A DNA stretch of 64,000 nucleotides, from the NCBI GenBank assembly GCA_021805775.1, contig JAJZED010000005.1, positions 65,001 to 129,000 on the forward strand, in the 5' to 3' direction. This document shows, one piece after another, positions 37,746-44,660 of this stretch (its first letter is position 1; the number at the start of each line of letters is the position of its first letter). The position numbers were made by a program, and so were the translations under genes. The notes under the pieces were generated by a model. That model made no database searches and was not told the origin of the DNA. It worked only from the letters and a program-made list of their open reading frames with translations. The stretch comes from a bacterium (GTDB lineage: Bacteria > Vulcanimicrobiota > Vulcanimicrobiia > Vulcanimicrobiales > Vulcanimicrobiaceae).

Positions 37746-39179
37746 TTACGCCAAATACTCTCGTAAGCCATGGACGCCGCCCTCGCGCCCAAAACCGCTT
37801 TCGCGAAAACCTCCGAACGGCGATGAAGGATCGAAGCGATTGAACGTATTGCACCACACGACACCTGCTTTGAGTTGTTGCGCGACTGCCATGTTCTTGC
37901 TGCCGCGCTCCGTCCAGACGCCTGCGGAAAGGCCGTAGGGAGTATCGTTCGCTTTTTCAATCGCTTCGTCGGGCGTGCGAAATGTCATAACCGCAAGCAC
38001 GGGGCCAAATATCTCCTCGCGCGCTATTCGGTGCGAACTTTCGACGTTTGTGAAGAACGAAGCGCGATAAAAATAGCCTTGCTCGGGTAGGTCGCAGCGC
38101 TGCTGGCGCAACGTGGCGCCTTGCTCCACTCCGCTACGGACGAGCTCGTCGATCTTATCGAGTTGAGCGCGTGAATTGATAGCTCCGATATCGGTGTTCT
38201 TATCGAGCGGGTCGCCGACGCGGAGCCGATCGATCCGCTGCTGGAGCCGGTCGACGACTTCGTCGAGGATCGATTCTTCGACGAGTAAGCGCGAGCCCGC
38301 GCAACAGACGTGTCCTTGGTTAAAGTAGATGCCGCGCACCACTCCTTCGATCGCTTGATCGAGCGGCGCGTCGGCGAATAAAATGTGGGCGGCCTTCCCG
38401 CCGAGTTCGAGCGTTAAGCGAGTTTTGCGGCCGACGAGAGCGCGGGCGATCTCGCGACCGACCTCGGTCGAGCCGGTAAATGCGAGCTTATCGAGGTTGC
38501 TTTGGGCGACCACGGCGGCGCCGGTCGTTTCGTCGCCGGTGACGACGTTGAGGACGCCCGGTGGAAGGTCGGCATCTTGCGCGATTTGGGCGAGCAGCAG
38601 CGCCGTGAGCGGGGTCGTCTCCGCGGGCTTGAGGACGATGGTATTTCCACAGGCAAGAGCGGGGGCGATCTTCCAGGCGGCCATCAAAAGGGGAAAATTC
38701 CAAGGTACGATAGCGCCGCAGAGGCCGAGCGGCTGCGGCATCTGCCCCGCGCGAGCGATCCATTCTAATTTATCGGCCCAACCGGCGTGATAAAAGAAAT
38801 GCGCCGCTGCGGTGGGAACGTCGAAATCGCGCGCTTCGCGAATGGGCTTCCCGCCATCGATCGATTCGAGAACCGCTATTTCACGCGAGCGTTCGGTGAT
38901 CGCTCGCGCGATGCGAAAGATATATTTCGCGCGACTTGAAGGTTTCATCGGCGCCCACCACCGTTCGTAGGCTTTCCGCGCGCTTCGGACCGCGCGCGCG
39001 ACATCTTCGGAATCCCCATGAGCGATGCCGGCGATGACCGTTTCGCGAGCGGGATCGATGCTCTCGTAGTAGCGGCCACTCTGCGGTGCAACCCATTTGC
39101 CGCCGATGAAAAGGCCGTATTCGCTGCGAATGACCGGTCGCACGCTCTCGGGAGCGGGTGCGTAAGCAAAGGAACTCAT
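37746..39179 (-). CDS. Aldehyde dehydrogenase, full-length
   Basis: NAD(P)-dependent aldehyde oxidation, 477 residues. Catalytic Cys292 lies in GHVCCAGSR and general-base Glu258 in LELGGKA. The cofactor-binding PWNFPLL, LKPAETTP and FTGSTEVG are all present. It lies 6 nt after deoC on the same strand, so the acetaldehyde or glyceraldehyde 3-phosphate released by deoxyribose-phosphate breakdown is a plausible substrate; this is an inference from context. Confidence 0.92.
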   Translation of the reverse strand: MSSFAYAPAPESVRPVIRSEYGLFIGGKWVAPQSGRYYESIDPARETVIAGIAHGDSEDVARAVRSARKAYERWWAPMKPSSRAKYIFRIARAITERSREIAVLESIDGGKPIREARDFDVPTAAAHFFYHAGWADKLEWIARAGQMPQPLGLCGAIVPWNFPLLMAAWKIAPALACGNTIVLKPAETTPLTALLLAQIAQDADLPPGVLNVVTGDETTGAAVVAQSNLDKLAFTGSTEVGREIARALVGRKTRLTLELGGKAAHILFADAPLDQAIEGVVRGIYFNQGHVCCAGSRLLVEESILDEVVDRLQQRIDRLRVGDPLDKNTDIGAINSRAQLDKIDELVRSGVEQGATLRQQRCDLPEQGYFYRASFFTNVESSHRIAREEIFGPVLAVMTFRTPDEAIEKANDTPYGLSAGVWTERGSKNMAVAQQLKAGVVWCNTFNRFDPSSPFGGFRESGFGREGGVHGLREYLA

Positions 39180-39185
39180 AGGTCC

Positions 39186-40064
39186 TCAATCCTTGGGAAT
39201 GCGCTCGGGGCGGGTGTAGTGCCCGGTACGCAGGCGTTCGCGCTGCAAGAGGAGATCGTCGAGTAAGCCGCTGGCGCCAAATCGAAACGAGTATGGATCC
39301 ATCCACTGCGGCGGGAGCGTCTCGTTAAGAATCGCGAGGTAGCCCAACGCCTGCTTTGTAGTACGAATGCCTCCGGCAAGTTTTAGACCGCGCCGGAGGC
39401 CCGTGCGGCGAAAGAATGCGGCGAGCGCCTCGCACATCGCCAAGGCCGTCGGGAAAGTAGCGTTGATGCCTATTTTCCCAGTCGAACTTTTGATGGTATC
39501 GGCTCCGGCCTCGAGCGCGAGGTCGCAAGCACGACGGATCGCCGTATAACTCCCGAGCTCGCCGGTTTCGAGGATGACTTTGAGGTGGCGATCCGCGCAG
39601 CGTTCCTTGACGGCCGCAATCTCCGTTGCGACGCAACGCTCGTCACCGCTCAGAAATGCCCCCCGGTCGATGACCATGTCGATCTCATCGGCACCCGCTT
39701 CCAGCGCTTGCTCGGTGTCGGCGAGCTTTACCGAGAGCCCGGCTTGCCCTGCCGGAAACGACGTCGCTACCGAAGCGATGCGGACGGAACTCCCCGCGAG
39801 GGCATCGCGGGCGATTCGCACGAAATTGGGGTAGACGCACACGGCGGCGACGGGCGGAGCATCGCTTCCCGGAAGCGGAGCGCGAGCCTTCGCGCAGAGC
39901 GAGCGCACGCGCCCCGGAGAGTCGCGTCCTTCCAGCGTCGTGAGGTCGATGCAAGATATTGCAAGATCGATCCACGCGCGTTTCGTCTCACCTTTTATCG
40001 ATCGTCCTGCCAGTTCGGCGGCACGCGATTCGAGCATCACGGCATCGACGCAGACCGATTGCAT
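39186..40064 (-). CDS. deoC: Deoxyribose-phosphate aldolase
   Basis: Cleaves 2-deoxyribose 5-phosphate to acetaldehyde and glyceraldehyde 3-phosphate in deoxynucleoside salvage. The 292 residues include the Schiff-base Lys192 in TIKSSTGK, the EIDMVID acid region (Asp129) and LKLAGGIRT. The N-terminal extension beyond the E. coli enzyme resembles the longer actinobacterial/animal type. The start ATG immediately follows the hppD stop codon (TAG-ATG), so the gene is co-transcribed with tyrosine catabolism, an unusual partner. Confidence 0.93.
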   Translation of the reverse strand: MQSVCVDAVMLESRAAELAGRSIKGETKRAWIDLAISCIDLTTLEGRDSPGRVRSLCAKARAPLPGSDAPPVAAVCVYPNFVRIARDALAGSSVRIASVATSFPAGQAGLSVKLADTEQALEAGADEIDMVIDRGAFLSGDERCVATEIAAVKERCADRHLKVILETGELGSYTAIRRACDLALEAGADTIKSSTGKIGINATFPTALAMCEALAAFFRRTGLRRGLKLAGGIRTTKQALGYLAILNETLPPQWMDPYSFRFGASGLLDDLLLQRERLRTGHYTRPERIPKD

Positions 40065-41192
40065 CTACAATGTGCCGCGCTTCTCTTGTTCTTTTTCGAT
40101 CGAGACGAAGAGCGCTTTGAAATTTCCTTTACCAAACGAGAGGCTGCCCTTGCGTTGGATGATCTCAAAAAACACCGTCGGCCGGTCCTGTAACGGTTTG
40201 GTGAATATTTGTAACATGTACCCCAAATCGTCGCGGTCGACGAGAATTTTACGATTGCGTAAAACTTCGATATCTTCGTCGATTTCGCCGACGCGGTTCT
40301 GCAGATCTTCGTAGTATGCATCGGGCGTGTCGAGAAATTCCACGCCGTTATCGCGCAAGGCGTCGATCGTTGCGACGATGTCGTCGGTGCGGATGGCGAG
40401 GTGCTGGACGCCCGCACCGCGATAGAAATCGAGATACTCCTCGATCTGCGATTTCTTTTTTCCGTGAGCGGGCTCGTTAATGGGGAATTTGACGCGATGG
40501 CGAGCGTCGCTCATCACTTTGGATTTGAGGGCGGTAAATTCGGTCGAGATATCTTTGTCGTCGAACGACACGAGTTGGGAAAATCCGAAAACTTTTTCGT
40601 AGAACGAACCCCAGGCATCCATCTCGCCCCAGCCGACGTTGCCGACGCAGTGATCGATCGCCAGCAGATGCGGCTTCGCGGCGCGTGGGGCGCTTTTCGC
40701 TAGCTCAACGTAGCCGGGCAGGAAGGCGCCGCCGTAACCGTCGCGCTCCACGAAGGTATGAACGGTATCTCCATAGGTGGCGATCGTGGCCAGGACGACG
40801 CGGCCGTTTTCGTCTTGTCGTTCGACGGGCTCGAGCACGCTGCGCGCTCCGCCGCGTATCGCCATCTCCCAAGCGCTACGGGCGTCGCGCACGCGAATGG
40901 CGACGTCGCGCACGCCGTCCCCGTGCTGCTTGACGTGTTCGGCGATGGCGTCGTCGCCGCGCAAGCTGGAGGTTAGGACAAAGCGGATATCGTGTTGTTC
41001 GAGGACGTAACTCGCGCGATCGTGGAGCCCCGTCTCGGGGCCTGCGTACGCTATCTGTTCGAACCCGAACGTGCATTGATAGAACTGCGAAGCCTGCTTG
41101 GCATTCCCGACATAGAACTCGATGTGATCCCAGTCGATCGTCGAGAGCGGAGTCGATGAATCGGGGGCCTGCGACGAGTGCGTTATGCTCAT
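40065..41192 (-). CDS. hppD: 4-hydroxyphenylpyruvate dioxygenase
   Basis: Fe(II) enzyme turning 4-hydroxyphenylpyruvate into homogentisate in tyrosine degradation. The 375 residues carry two vicinal-oxygen-chelate domains. The three iron ligands are His181 (IDHCVGNV), His264 (QHLAIRT) and Glu343 (FFEIIQRKG). ATG 41192 gives the usual N terminus; the longer frame would overlap the divergent gene. It heads the hppD-deoC-ALDH operon, while the later pathway genes lie on the other side. Confidence 0.96.
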   Translation of the reverse strand: MSITHSSQAPDSSTPLSTIDWDHIEFYVGNAKQASQFYQCTFGFEQIAYAGPETGLHDRASYVLEQHDIRFVLTSSLRGDDAIAEHVKQHGDGVRDVAIRVRDARSAWEMAIRGGARSVLEPVERQDENGRVVLATIATYGDTVHTFVERDGYGGAFLPGYVELAKSAPRAAKPHLLAIDHCVGNVGWGEMDAWGSFYEKVFGFSQLVSFDDKDISTEFTALKSKVMSDARHRVKFPINEPAHGKKKSQIEEYLDFYRGAGVQHLAIRTDDIVATIDALRDNGVEFLDTPDAYYEDLQNRVGEIDEDIEVLRNRKILVDRDDLGYMLQIFTKPLQDRPTVFFEIIQRKGSLSFGKGNFKALFVSIEKEQEKRGTL

Positions 41193-41257
41193 AGCCCAAC
41201 GTCTTGGCGGGCATGTCGGCAGGGCCCTTGTGTTCGCTCGGGCAAACCGCGCGAACG

Positions 41258-42190
41258 ATGATGACCGAGGGCTTCGCGCGGGCAACGTTGAGCGAACTGA
41301 TCGATTACGCCGGGCTCTTCCCGCCGGCGCAGCTTGCCTTAGAGCGAGCCTACGAAGAGTACCGGCGCCTCCGAGATTCGCGGCACGCGTGGATGGTAGG
41401 GCGCTTTATCGTCCCCTTTTCGCGCCTCGACGCCCTGCTCGAAATTCATGGAGAAGCGCCGCGATTTGCAGTCTCCGTCATTTTCGATGGAGGGCGCGAT
41501 TCGGTACGCTGGTTAAACGAGCTCTCCGATCGGCTCGCTGCGCTCGCCGGGCACCTCCGCGAGCGTTCGCCCATCGAAATATCGGCTATAGAGATTCCGT
41601 TGCCCTCGCTCAAGGCGGCCCGAGAGAGCTACGGGGCCGCGCTCTCGCAGGTCGGCGCGCTACTCGAGCATACCGGGCTGCGATCCATTCCGTGTTACGT
41701 TGAATTTCCGCGCGACGCTCGTTGGAGCGCGGAGATGCCCGATGCGATTGCCTCGCTCGCGCGCACGCGTTTGCGTTCAAAAATTCGTTGTGGCGGCCCC
41801 ACAGCCGATGCGTTTCCGTCGCCGGCCGAGCTCGCAGCGCATCTGCAAACCTGCGTCGAGCACGGAGTCGCGTGGAAAGCGACCGCAGGCCTGCACCATC
41901 CGGTGGCGCGCAGAGATTCTGCGACCGACTTCGAGATGCACGGCTTCGTGAACCTTCTCGTCGCTTCGTGCATCGCCCTCGATCGCGCACCCTTCGAAGA
42001 GATCGAAGCCGTCCTCGCCGAGCGGGCTCTCGGTGCGTTTGTAGTTGGCGAAAGCGGCCTCTCGTGGCGCGGTCGGGAATGCTCGGTACGAGCGATGGAG
42101 CTGACGCGCCGCACGGGTTTGATCTCGTATGGGAGTTGCAGCGTCGACGAGCCGGTGGAGGATCTCATGGCAATGGGGTGGCTGGCATGA
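41258..42190 (+). CDS. Unknown protein coupled to fumarylacetoacetase, about 310 aa
   Basis: I do not recognise a characterised family. The protein is soluble, with no signal or membrane helix. It starts with ATLSELIDYAGLFPPAQL and has conserved-looking motifs KIRCGGPTADAFPSP and WKATAGLHHPV, with Arg, Cys, Lys and paired His that could form an active site; the spacing suggests an alpha/beta barrel. Its stop overlaps the fumarylacetoacetase start (ATGA), which argues for a role in tyrosine or phenylacetate breakdown. The one missing pathway enzyme is maleylacetoacetate isomerase. The start is uncertain (41204, 41258 or 41261). Confidence 0.7.
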   Translation: MMTEGFARATLSELIDYAGLFPPAQLALERAYEEYRRLRDSRHAWMVGRFIVPFSRLDALLEIHGEAPRFAVSVIFDGGRDSVRWLNELSDRLAALAGHLRERSPIEISAIEIPLPSLKAARESYGAALSQVGALLEHTGLRSIPCYVEFPRDARWSAEMPDAIASLARTRLRSKIRCGGPTADAFPSPAELAAHLQTCVEHGVAWKATAGLHHPVARRDSATDFEMHGFVNLLVASCIALDRAPFEEIEAVLAERALGAFVVGESGLSWRGRECSVRAMELTRRTGLISYGSCSVDEPVEDLMAMGWLA

Positions 42191-43530
42191 GCGCCCTCGA
42201 TCTCGACGAGACGCACGATCCCGCGCGCACGAGTTGGGTCGATGTGGACGAGCGCAGCGATTTTCCGATCCAAAATCTTCCCTTCGCGATCTTTTCGATC
42301 GACGGGCGAACGCCGCGCATCGGCGTCGCAGTCGGCGGGCGCATCGTCGATATGCGCGCGCTCGCGGAGGCCGGGCATCTCGACGACTCTATCGATCGCA
42401 GCGTCCTTTGCAGCTCGTCGCTCAACGCAATGATGTCCGTAACGCGCCCGCGACGGCGAGCGTTGCGTCGCAGATTGAGCGACCTGCTTCGTAACGGCGG
42501 CGATCCGGTGCTTCGCGAGATGCCCGGCGCGCTCTGCGATACGCGCGATGCGAAGCTGCACCTTCCGGCGGTCGTCGGCGATTACGTCGATTTTTATTCG
42601 TCGTTGGAGCATGCGAGCAATCTCGGACGGCTCTTTCGGCCGCAGGGCGAACCGTTGTTGCCGAATTGGCGCTGGATACCGATCGGCTACCACGGGCGCT
42701 CGGCGAGCATCGTTCCGAGCGGCACGGATATTCGGCGGCCGTGCGGCCAGCGCAAGCCTCCCGATGCCGATGCGCCGATCTTCGGGCCGAGCGCGCGCTT
42801 GGACATCGAATTGGAGCTCGGGTTTTTCGCCGGACCGGGCAACGAACTCGGTGCGTCGATTCCCATAGATCGCGCTCGCGAGCATATCTTCGGCTGCGTT
42901 TTAGTCAACGATTGGAGCGCGCGCGATATTCAAGCTTGGGAGTACCAACCGCTGGGGCCCTTTCTCGGAAAATCCTTTGCCACGACGATCTCACCGTGGG
43001 TCGTGACGCTCGAAGCGCTCGAGCCCTTCCGGGTTCCCGGCCCGACGCAGACGCCACCGCCGCTTTCGTATCTCGCGCAACGAGAGCCCGAGAATTACGC
43101 TATCGCATTAGCCGTCGATCTGAGCGATGCGCGAATGCGCGAACGCGGCATGGCATCGGCGACGATCTCGCGCACATCCTTTGCAGCAATGTATTGGAGC
43201 CAGGCGCAACAACTCGCGCACGCATCGAGCAACGGGGCGGCCGTCGCTGCGGGGGATCTTTTCGCATCGGGAACGGTCAGCGGCTCGCTCGACGGTACGC
43301 AGGGGAGTTTGATCGAGCTTACGGAGAACGGGACGCGCCCGTTACATCTGCCCGACGGTGGTGAACGTCGCTTCCTCGAGGATGGCGACGAGGTCACGCT
43401 GCGCGGACGCTGCGAGCGCGCCGGATATCGTTCGATCGGGTTTGGGTGCGCGCGCGGAACCGTGCTTCCGGCGCTCCCCCAGAGTGCGGCGCGCGGCGAT
43501 GCTTACGGCGAACTCGCCCAAGAACGATAG
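42187..43530 (+). CDS. fahA: Fumarylacetoacetase
   Basis: Last step of tyrosine breakdown: fumarylacetoacetate to fumarate and acetoacetate. The 447 residues match eukaryote-like FAH, with an N-terminal SH3-like domain (FPIQNLPFAIFS) and the catalytic C-terminal domain. DYVDFYSSLEHASNLG contains the catalytic His and a metal Asp; IGYHGRSASIVPSG and LVNDWSARDIQAWEY are the signatures. It is translationally coupled to the unknown gene before it. The 3' end overlaps hmgA by 28 nt. Confidence 0.96.
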   Translation: MSALDLDETHDPARTSWVDVDERSDFPIQNLPFAIFSIDGRTPRIGVAVGGRIVDMRALAEAGHLDDSIDRSVLCSSSLNAMMSVTRPRRRALRRRLSDLLRNGGDPVLREMPGALCDTRDAKLHLPAVVGDYVDFYSSLEHASNLGRLFRPQGEPLLPNWRWIPIGYHGRSASIVPSGTDIRRPCGQRKPPDADAPIFGPSARLDIELELGFFAGPGNELGASIPIDRAREHIFGCVLVNDWSARDIQAWEYQPLGPFLGKSFATTISPWVVTLEALEPFRVPGPTQTPPPLSYLAQREPENYAIALAVDLSDARMRERGMASATISRTSFAAMYWSQAQQLAHASSNGAAVAAGDLFASGTVSGSLDGTQGSLIELTENGTRPLHLPDGGERRFLEDGDEVTLRGRCERAGYRSIGFGCARGTVLPALPQSAARGDAYGELAQER

Positions 43531-44660
43531 TAGCTCTCATCCTCGCAGAGCGTCGCCGCGCGCGCGAGCTTCAGCGGTTTGAACGTATCGACCATAATGG
43601 CGATTTCATCGGTCTCGCGTTTGCCGAGACTCGCTTCGACCGCGCCCGGCTGCGGGCCATGCGGTGCGCCGGCGGCGTGCAAGGTGATCGAGCCTTCGAC
43701 CACTCCGCGACGACTCATGAAGTTTCCGCTCACGTAATAGAGCACTTCATCGCAGTCGACGCTCGAGTGATTGTAGGGAACCGGGATGGCGAGGGGATGA
43801 TAATCGAAGAGCCGCGGCACGAACGCGCAGAAAGCCGCGCCGGGGGCCTCAAAGGTTGCATGTGCGGTCGGCGGCTGATGGAGTTTTCCGGTGATCGGCA
43901 TGAAATCTTGTAGATTGAAAGCGTAGGGATAGCAATACCCGTCCCAGCCGATAACATCGCAGGGGTGATTCTCGACGACGTAGATTGCATTGCGTCCGCG
44001 GTTCGTCACCCGAATTTCATACGAGCCGAGCTCGGTGTTCGGTGGGGCGAGCACGGGAGCGCGAAAATCGCGTTCGTAATAAGGTGCGTGCTCTTCGAGT
44101 TGGCCGAATTCGTTGCGGTATTTTCGCGGAATCGTCACCATGCCGACCGACTCGTGCACGACCATATCGGTCGGTTCGTCGGGATGGATCCGCCAGGTCG
44201 TCCCGGTCGGCATCAGCACGTAATCGAGCGGGCGATACGCGAGCCGACCGAACGGCGTCTCGAACGTTCCCGTACCCCGATGAATGAAGAGAAGTTCGTC
44301 GCCGCCGACGTTACGGTAGAAGTTCGCCATCGGTTCGCGAGCGGTCGCCATCGATAGTAAGATGTCGTCGTTTCCGAGAATCGGCGTGCGCGAATCGACG
44401 GCATCGCCGGCGAGCGTTAATTTGCCGGTAAGAAAATGACGGTTTCGCAACGGGTCGTTTTCGTGAAACTCGACGCGCGAACGATGCCACTGACGGACTT
44501 CACGCGTTGCCGTCGGCGGGCGCTCGTGATAGAGCAGCGAGTAGATGCTCTCGAATCCTCGCGTTGAAAAAAGTTCTTCGGCGTAGAGCCCGCCGTCGGG
44601 TCGGCGAAATTGAATGTGTCGTTTCTCCGGTAGCTCGCCGGCTCGCTGATAACTCGGCAT
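43503..44660 (-). CDS. hmgA: Homogentisate 1,2-dioxygenase
   Basis: Ring-cleaving iron enzyme forming maleylacetoacetate. At 385 residues it is shorter than the 430-445 usual in proteobacteria and animals, missing N-terminal sequence but keeping the core: FDYHPLAIPVPYNHSS, VLYYVSGNFMSR and HAAGAPHGPQPG, which supply the iron ligands. LPTG-type loops (VLMPTGTTWRI) mark the cupin fold. Gene order with fahA and hppD confirms the pathway. A CDGSH protein gene lies 3 nt upstream. Confidence 0.95.
   Translation of the reverse strand: MPSYQRAGELPEKRHIQFRRPDGGLYAEELFSTRGFESIYSLLYHERPPTATREVRQWHRSRVEFHENDPLRNRHFLTGKLTLAGDAVDSRTPILGNDDILLSMATAREPMANFYRNVGGDELLFIHRGTGTFETPFGRLAYRPLDYVLMPTGTTWRIHPDEPTDMVVHESVGMVTIPRKYRNEFGQLEEHAPYYERDFRAPVLAPPNTELGSYEIRVTNRGRNAIYVVENHPCDVIGWDGYCYPYAFNLQDFMPITGKLHQPPTAHATFEAPGAAFCAFVPRLFDYHPLAIPVPYNHSSVDCDEVLYYVSGNFMSRRGVVEGSITLHAAGAPHGPQPGAVEASLGKRETDEIAIMVDTFKPLKLARAATLCEDESYYRSWASSP

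Follow-up and report, generated by a model that had tools for sequence, protein, structure and literature searches.

Gene X, a candidate glutathione-independent maleylacetoacetate isomerase gene bound to fahA in four bacterial phyla

The homogentisate route requires an isomerase between homogentisate dioxygenase (HmgA) and fumarylacetoacetase (FahA). To our knowledge, no gene has been assigned for the isomerization of maleylacetoacetate in Gram-positive and other glutathione-free bacteria. The locus described here raises the question of which gene supplies this step where no standard isomerase is found. An earlier note on this DNA had named an uncharacterized gene, here called X, as a candidate for a non-homologous isomerase or another accessory step. 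This candidacy was supported by the co-occurrence of X with fahA, by their adjacency in four phyla and by the lack of maiA, the gene of the zeta-class enzyme, over its profile cut-off; from these observations we infer the isomerase activity, and seven fahA-bearing genomes have no X.

The tyrosine-pathway genes of the window

The window, meaning the whole stretch of 64,000 nucleotides that was analyzed, contains hppD, hmgA and fahA, as had been noted before. Gene X (41258-42190, plus strand) encodes 310 amino acids and was delimited from its open reading frame, the family alignment A1 and the residue census. Its frame extends from the ATG at 41258 to the TGA at 42188-42190, and fahA begins with the ATG at 42187, which bears out the ATGA overlap reported for the two genes. 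The fahA gene (42187-43530, plus strand) matched TIGR01266 over the cut-off (516 bits, E = 6e-155). The hppD gene for 4-hydroxyphenylpyruvate dioxygenase (40065-41192, minus strand; scanned as 40065-41195) is divergent from X and matched TIGR01263 over the cut-off (460 bits, E = 6e-138). The 65-bp gap between hppD and X-fahA (41193-41257, no strand assigned) is, judging from sequence only, a probable regulatory region shared by the divergent transcripts of hppD and X-fahA. The hmgA gene (43503-44660, minus strand) converges on fahA and encodes a short, divergent homogentisate dioxygenase of 385 amino acids, with a match to HgmA_N at E = 1.4e-9 and a TIGR01015 score of only 65 bits, far below the cut-off (510). 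HmgA-like reading frames of similar length were seen in the X clusters of Kovacikia, Nonomuraea and Priestia. A deoC aldolase gene and an aldehyde dehydrogenase gene follow hppD on the same strand (37746-40064, minus strand).

The earlier note had found no recognizable maleylacetoacetate isomerase in the window, and this absence extends to the whole assembly (2.59 Mb, 95.9% complete), in which TIGR01262 (maiA) gave no match at E ≤ 1e-3. Glutathione (GSH) synthetase (PF02955) also had no match in this genome, which argues against glutathione as the cofactor of X. No match to BshC was found, and no match to MDMPI_N was over the cut-off (best E = 0.24). One match to GST_N_3 was over the cut-off; it lies in a 98-amino-acid reading frame that resembles glutaredoxin by eye and was therefore dropped as a rival isomerase. 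Since X stands directly before fahA and no standard isomerase was found, X probably supplies the missing step, and does so without glutathione.

X belongs to a widespread family that is unnamed in the databases searched. With X as the query, no Pfam match was obtained at E ≤ 1, and the single NCBIfam match at E ≤ 1 was unrelated (11.5 bits). A sequence search of the PDB gave nothing meaningful, the best E values being 1.4 for X alone and 0.13 for the profile. The alignment of 43 family members still had no relative in Pfam, NCBIfam or the PDB. The nearest named relative is on a Candidatus Eremiobacterota contig, with 83% identity, and the length of 310 amino acids was the same in every same-genus relative extracted (L001-L010, L108-L111). 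A peptide-pattern search of genome contigs gave one X locus, L001; most relatives were missed by these patterns and came from wider searches. No relatives were found in the viral contigs searched.

Association of X with fahA

X was detected in 92 of the 148 genomes of the phylum, and the single-sequence and profile searches gave the same 92. Genomes were scored as having fahA when TIGR01266 was over its cut-off (88 genomes) or when a match below the cut-off reached at least 70 bits (10 genomes); the latter were fragments, split frames and contig-edge pieces, with one full-length match of 328 bits (G027). Weaker matches to the FAH superfamily were scored as absence. On this basis, 91 genomes had both genes, 7 had fahA without X, 1 had X without fahA and 49 had neither. 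X was thus present in 91 of 98 fahA genomes versus 1 of 50 genomes without fahA (Fisher P = 2e-30, shared descent ignored). The X genomes are spread over 33 of 70 genera, and the seven genomes with fahA and no X belong to seven other genera. When hppD was scored at 115 bits or more, it was present in 91 of the 92 X genomes. Homologues of X in organisms lacking tyrosine catabolism, which the earlier note had set against the proposal, were looked for, and among the 92 X genomes G125 alone had no fahA; this genome is 82% complete, and its X is only a contig-borne fragment.

The position of X relative to fahA was surveyed at 95 loci, 9 of them on plasmids and 86 in X genomes, 85 of the 92 being represented; the X genomes outside the survey are G061, G077, G109, G111, G112, G114 and G125. 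The gap between X and fahA was extrapolated from the ends of tblastn matches, and fahA was counted when a match lay downstream on the same strand (largest gap, 1366 bp). The survey of neighborhoods beside fahA, proposed earlier as a check, favored the coupling: at 93 of the 95 loci fahA lay downstream of X and in the same orientation, 91 times at a distance of up to about 150 bp, the adjacency being present in four phyla. One gene intervenes between X and fahA at L079 and L092. At L087 and L088, X is near hppD and away from fahA, which is on another contig. The adjacency of X and fahA persisted down to 26-28% identity of X. The stop codon of X has the form NTGA in 63 of 93 cases, 31 of them ATGA; this count is no evidence by itself, because A, G or T often precedes a TGA stop.

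At 67 loci the available sequence reached 4.5 kb in both directions. Of these, 65 had fahA, 48 hppD, 45 hmgA, and only 25 and 24 deoC and the aldehyde dehydrogenase gene, respectively, where these last four were counted when they matched no more than 4 kb away in either direction. The presence of fahA at 65 of 67 loci versus 48 or fewer for the others indicates that the link between X and fahA outlives the rest of the neighborhood. In the genome G062, X is present twice, with a separate fahA downstream of each copy, and in the second cluster a 451-amino-acid HmgA, canonical by eye, intervenes. The occurrence of X with this canonical type and, in the window, with the short divergent type indicates that X follows the chemistry and not one type of HmgA.

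X was also found outside the phylum, in 24 of 72,556 plasmid records searched by tblastn: 11 from Streptomyces, 6 from Priestia, 2 each from Pseudonocardia and Rhodococcus, and 1 each from Nonomuraea, Kovacikia and Tsukamurella. In all 24, a same-strand match to fahA starts no more than 250 bp from where the X match ends. X is annotated as a hypothetical protein in 22 records, and the other two have no annotation at X. The gene order is hppD-X-fahA-hisC-hmgA in Priestia (a second record starts at X-fahA-hisC-hmgA), hmgA-X-fahA-CoA transferase in Streptomyces, hmgA-X-fahA in Pseudonocardia, cupin-X-fahA in Rhodococcus and hppD-hmgA-X-fahA in Tsukamurella. With reading frames judged by eye, the order is hmgA-X-fahA in Nonomuraea and X-fahA in Kovacikia, with hppD and hmgA nearby on the opposite strand in the latter.

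The fahA gene itself was found in 119 plasmid records, 95 of which had no X match at E ≤ 10. Among the fahA plasmid records listed, 25 are from outside the Pseudomonadota (genus placement partly provisional), and X is present in 24 of these 25. The exception is a Nocardia farcinica record (NZ_LN868939.1), in which hmgA and fahA are contiguous without X (L131, 7793-10170). No maiA over the cut-off was found in the eight X-bearing plasmid records searched, a set that covered genera other than Nonomuraea. As a positive control, maiA was over the cut-off in Acinetobacter and Sphingobium plasmid records, indicating that the search detects the gene. Among the five Pseudomonadota fahA stretches viewed, one of them without annotation, maiA adjoins fahA or hmgA in three; it was not seen in the Paracoccus stretch. 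The Kovacikia plasmid has, despite its X, five TIGR01262 matches below the cut-off, in GST-like proteins, so X is not confined to bacteria without GSTs.

Within the phylum, maiA was over the TIGR01262 cut-off in none of the 148 genomes, and weaker matches were present in 14. The genomes with fahA and no X are G012, G027, G088, G098, G131, G132 and G140, of which only G027, G088 and G131 have any TIGR01262 match, those of G088 and G131 being weak. G027 has a GST match of 81 bits, below the maiA cut-off, and a GSH synthetase match of 175 bits. In the other four (G012, G098, G132 and G140), no TIGR01262 match was found, and in the stretches read no gene next to fahA looked like an isomerase by eye. 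This indicates that isomerization is apparently achievable in another way. In G012 and G132, an exonuclease-like gene (by eye) stands divergently beside fahA in the place of X (L132, 3642-4409; L136, 3947-4828). The second fahA of G108 (C210, L142) has no X match in the approximately 840 bp upstream of it to the contig end. Among the 92 X genomes, GSH synthetase was strong in G134, weak over the cut-off in G013 and below the cut-off in G034 and G065; the match in G134 is possibly contamination, and G013 also has BshC. The correlation between X and thiol genes is therefore loose.

Taken with their context, these results indicate almost beyond doubt that X is associated with the FahA step, and the evidence is about as strong as evidence from genomic context gets. 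X is a conserved family whose presence and position are both tied to fahA.

Conserved residues and a possible mechanism

The residue census covered 94 aligned X sequences after six duplicate loci had been dropped. Four motifs stand out, all on the plus strand of the window. The first, D16-YAGLFPPA (residues 16-24; 41303-41329), has D16 and P23 in 94 of 94 sequences. The KIRCGG and KATAGLHHP stretches, which had only looked conserved in the single sequence, proved to be true family motifs: in K175-I-R177-C-G-G (residues 175-180; 41780-41797), K175 is present in 94/94 and R177 in 93/94, and in K207-ATAGLHHP (residues 207-215; 41876-41902), K207 is present in 94/94, H213 in 93/94 and H214 in 90/94. 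The last motif, Y-G-S-C294-S (residues 291-295; 42128-42142), holds the candidate catalytic cysteine C294 (93/94). The residues invariant in all 94 sequences include D16, E149, K175, K207, G229 and P299; E112, R177, T209, H213 and C294 are each kept in 93. Eight polar residues and C294 are retained together in 93 of the 94 sequences. The outlier, in G060 (L099, 5881-6765), has lost R177, H213 and C294 and still stands before fahA; from its sequence, this copy looks decayed or repurposed. H228 varies in the four f13 sequences and in Kovacikia, and N232 varies in the same four f13 sequences. The X of the window matches profile A1 and carries K175, R177, K207, H213 and C294, the marks of the family, in a genome with fahA.

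As the most economical reading, and with moderate confidence, we regard X as a non-homologous, glutathione-independent maleylacetoacetate isomerase in bacteria without the zeta-class GST enzyme. X would convert maleylacetoacetate, the product of HmgA, to fumarylacetoacetate, the substrate of FahA. In the known isomerase, glutathione acts by a Michael-type addition, followed by rotation and elimination. C294 could provide an internal thiol for addition to C2 of the enedione, in the role that glutathione has in that enzyme, after which rotation about the C2-C3 bond and elimination of the thiol would follow. K175, R177, K207 and H213 may hold the diketone as well as both carboxylates, with protons perhaps shuttled by D16, E112 or E149. 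The thiol chemistry of C294 is more speculative than the isomerase assignment; the conservation of a cysteine together with basic and acidic residues is compatible with Michael-type attack on the double bond of the maleyl group. The main chemical alternative would be Schiff-base formation between the diketone and K175 or K207. PMC10950700 states that the zeta-class GST is active when GSH is present.

The zeta-class enzyme MaiA/HmgC (TIGR01262) has the same expected place in the pathway as X, beside fahA. Like X in the window, maiA shares an overlap with fahA in the two plasmids viewed from Acinetobacter and Sphingobium, but there it lies after fahA, whereas X sits before it. The two are not alike in sequence, with none of the 43 X members matching TIGR01262 at E ≤ 0.1. 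Maleate cis-trans isomerase, of the Asp/Glu racemase superfamily, is a cysteine-based, cofactor-free enzyme that acts on a maleyl group and has two catalytic cysteines. Its chemistry is the mode proposed for X. No Pfam match to this superfamily was found in X (E ≤ 1) or in the 43 members (E ≤ 0.1), and X has one near-invariant cysteine, C294 (93/94), in contrast to the pair of maleate isomerase. The mycothiol-dependent maleylpyruvate isomerase (MDMPI_N, PF11716) is the glutathione-free answer to an analogous isomerization in Gram-positive bacteria. Its DinB-type domain is absent from X (0 of 43 members at E ≤ 0.1).

The structural models are a lead only. AlphaFold2 gave a pLDDT of 49.7 for the window X with one relative and 53.8 for the relative alone. 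Foldseek found no match at E ≤ 1e-3 for the former model. Among the matches listed by VIA-align for the latter, most were barrel proteins with partial alignments (Z = 6.7-8.5, middling by the tool's own scale), the aldolase DERA (1n7k) being one of them at Z = 6.7. Both low-confidence models alternate strands and helices in a barrel-like manner. A kinship with DERA/DeoC (TIGR00126), whose motifs have the order D, K, K like X by eye, was not supported: hhalign gave no match (score 12.4, P = 0.64) to a DeoC set in which 30 new sequences were joined to at most 15 from an earlier set, and the earlier set had likewise given no match.

It is conceivable, although we lean slightly against the proposal as a whole, that X founds a new family of cofactor-free, cysteine-dependent isomerases, probably with a (beta/alpha)8 barrel, and that this family takes the place of the glutathione enzyme in the tyrosine catabolism of four or more phyla, among them Eremiobacterota, Actinomycetota, Bacillota and Cyanobacteriota.

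Alternative explanations and significance

The close coupling of X to fahA, seen at 65 of 67 loci and exceeding that of every other gene counted, would also be expected if X were a partner of FahA, as a subunit or in maturation or channeling, and isomerization were left to another enzyme or a small thiol or were bypassed by a FahA that accepts maleylacetoacetate. The four fahA genomes without X or any TIGR01262 match are in line with such a role. We consider it unlikely, because many FahA proteins manage without X (95 of 119 plasmid records), X keeps catalytic-looking polar residues (D, E, K, R, H and C) that would be unusual in a mere partner, and at L087 and L088 X is apart from fahA and near hppD. 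A role in which X acts on another intermediate or a side product, for example in the repair of a by-product of maleylacetoacetate or fumarylacetoacetate, is judged a little less likely again. The presence of X with fahA and hppD does not identify the compound acted on; this role would leave the isomerase step unfilled in the X genomes, and X is lost less often than one would expect of a repair enzyme.

The least probable of the alternatives, and in our view an improbable one, is that a mycothiol-type DinB (MDMPI_N) enzyme carries out the isomerization and X does something else. Two Streptomyces plasmids do carry a maleylpyruvate isomerase N-domain gene upstream of X-fahA (L124, 5349-6005; L183, 985-1641), and no annotated hmgA is present within the stretch viewed of either cluster. 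A figure legend in PMC11012174 lists a mycothiol-dependent maleylpyruvate-isomerase-family gene together with hppD, homogentisate dioxygenase and fumarylacetoacetase genes of Streptomyces. Against this role, the genome of the window has no MDMPI_N over the cut-off, and none is annotated in the stretches viewed of Priestia, Streptomyces Alt3, Pseudonocardia, Rhodococcus and Tsukamurella, although the gene table for plasmids is incomplete. The remaining alternative concerns the mechanism and has about the same small likelihood as a FahA partner. X could be a Schiff-base enzyme and kin to the class I aldolases, with a DERA-like barrel and its lysines on strands 6 and 7. The order and spacing of K175, K207 and D16 are DERA-like by eye, and the barrel-like matches of the low-confidence models point the same way, but no profile-profile match to DeoC was obtained, and PF01791 had no match in X (Pfam, E ≤ 1) or in the 43 members (E ≤ 0.1).

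If the preferred reading of X as a maleylacetoacetate isomerase is true, it identifies the gene for the isomerization step in glutathione-free bacteria. X would then fill this step in Streptomyces, Rhodococcus, Priestia and others, many pathway reconstructions would be mended, and X would be a thiol-free analogue of a human tyrosine-pathway enzyme. A literature search covering few subscription journals listed no title that gives a name to this isomerase gene and no report on what X does. The portions available of PMC11889516, PMC6662401, PMC10950700 and PMC11012174 name no gene for the glutathione-free step and contain no enzyme assay or knockout.

A second X cluster with the order X-HmgA-FahA is present in G062 (L144, on C29) and in G108 (L092, on C109). 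At L144, genes resembling those for an ABC transporter, a P450 and a CoA transferase (by eye) surround X-HmgA-FahA. These second clusters perhaps serve an aromatic pathway other than that of tyrosine.
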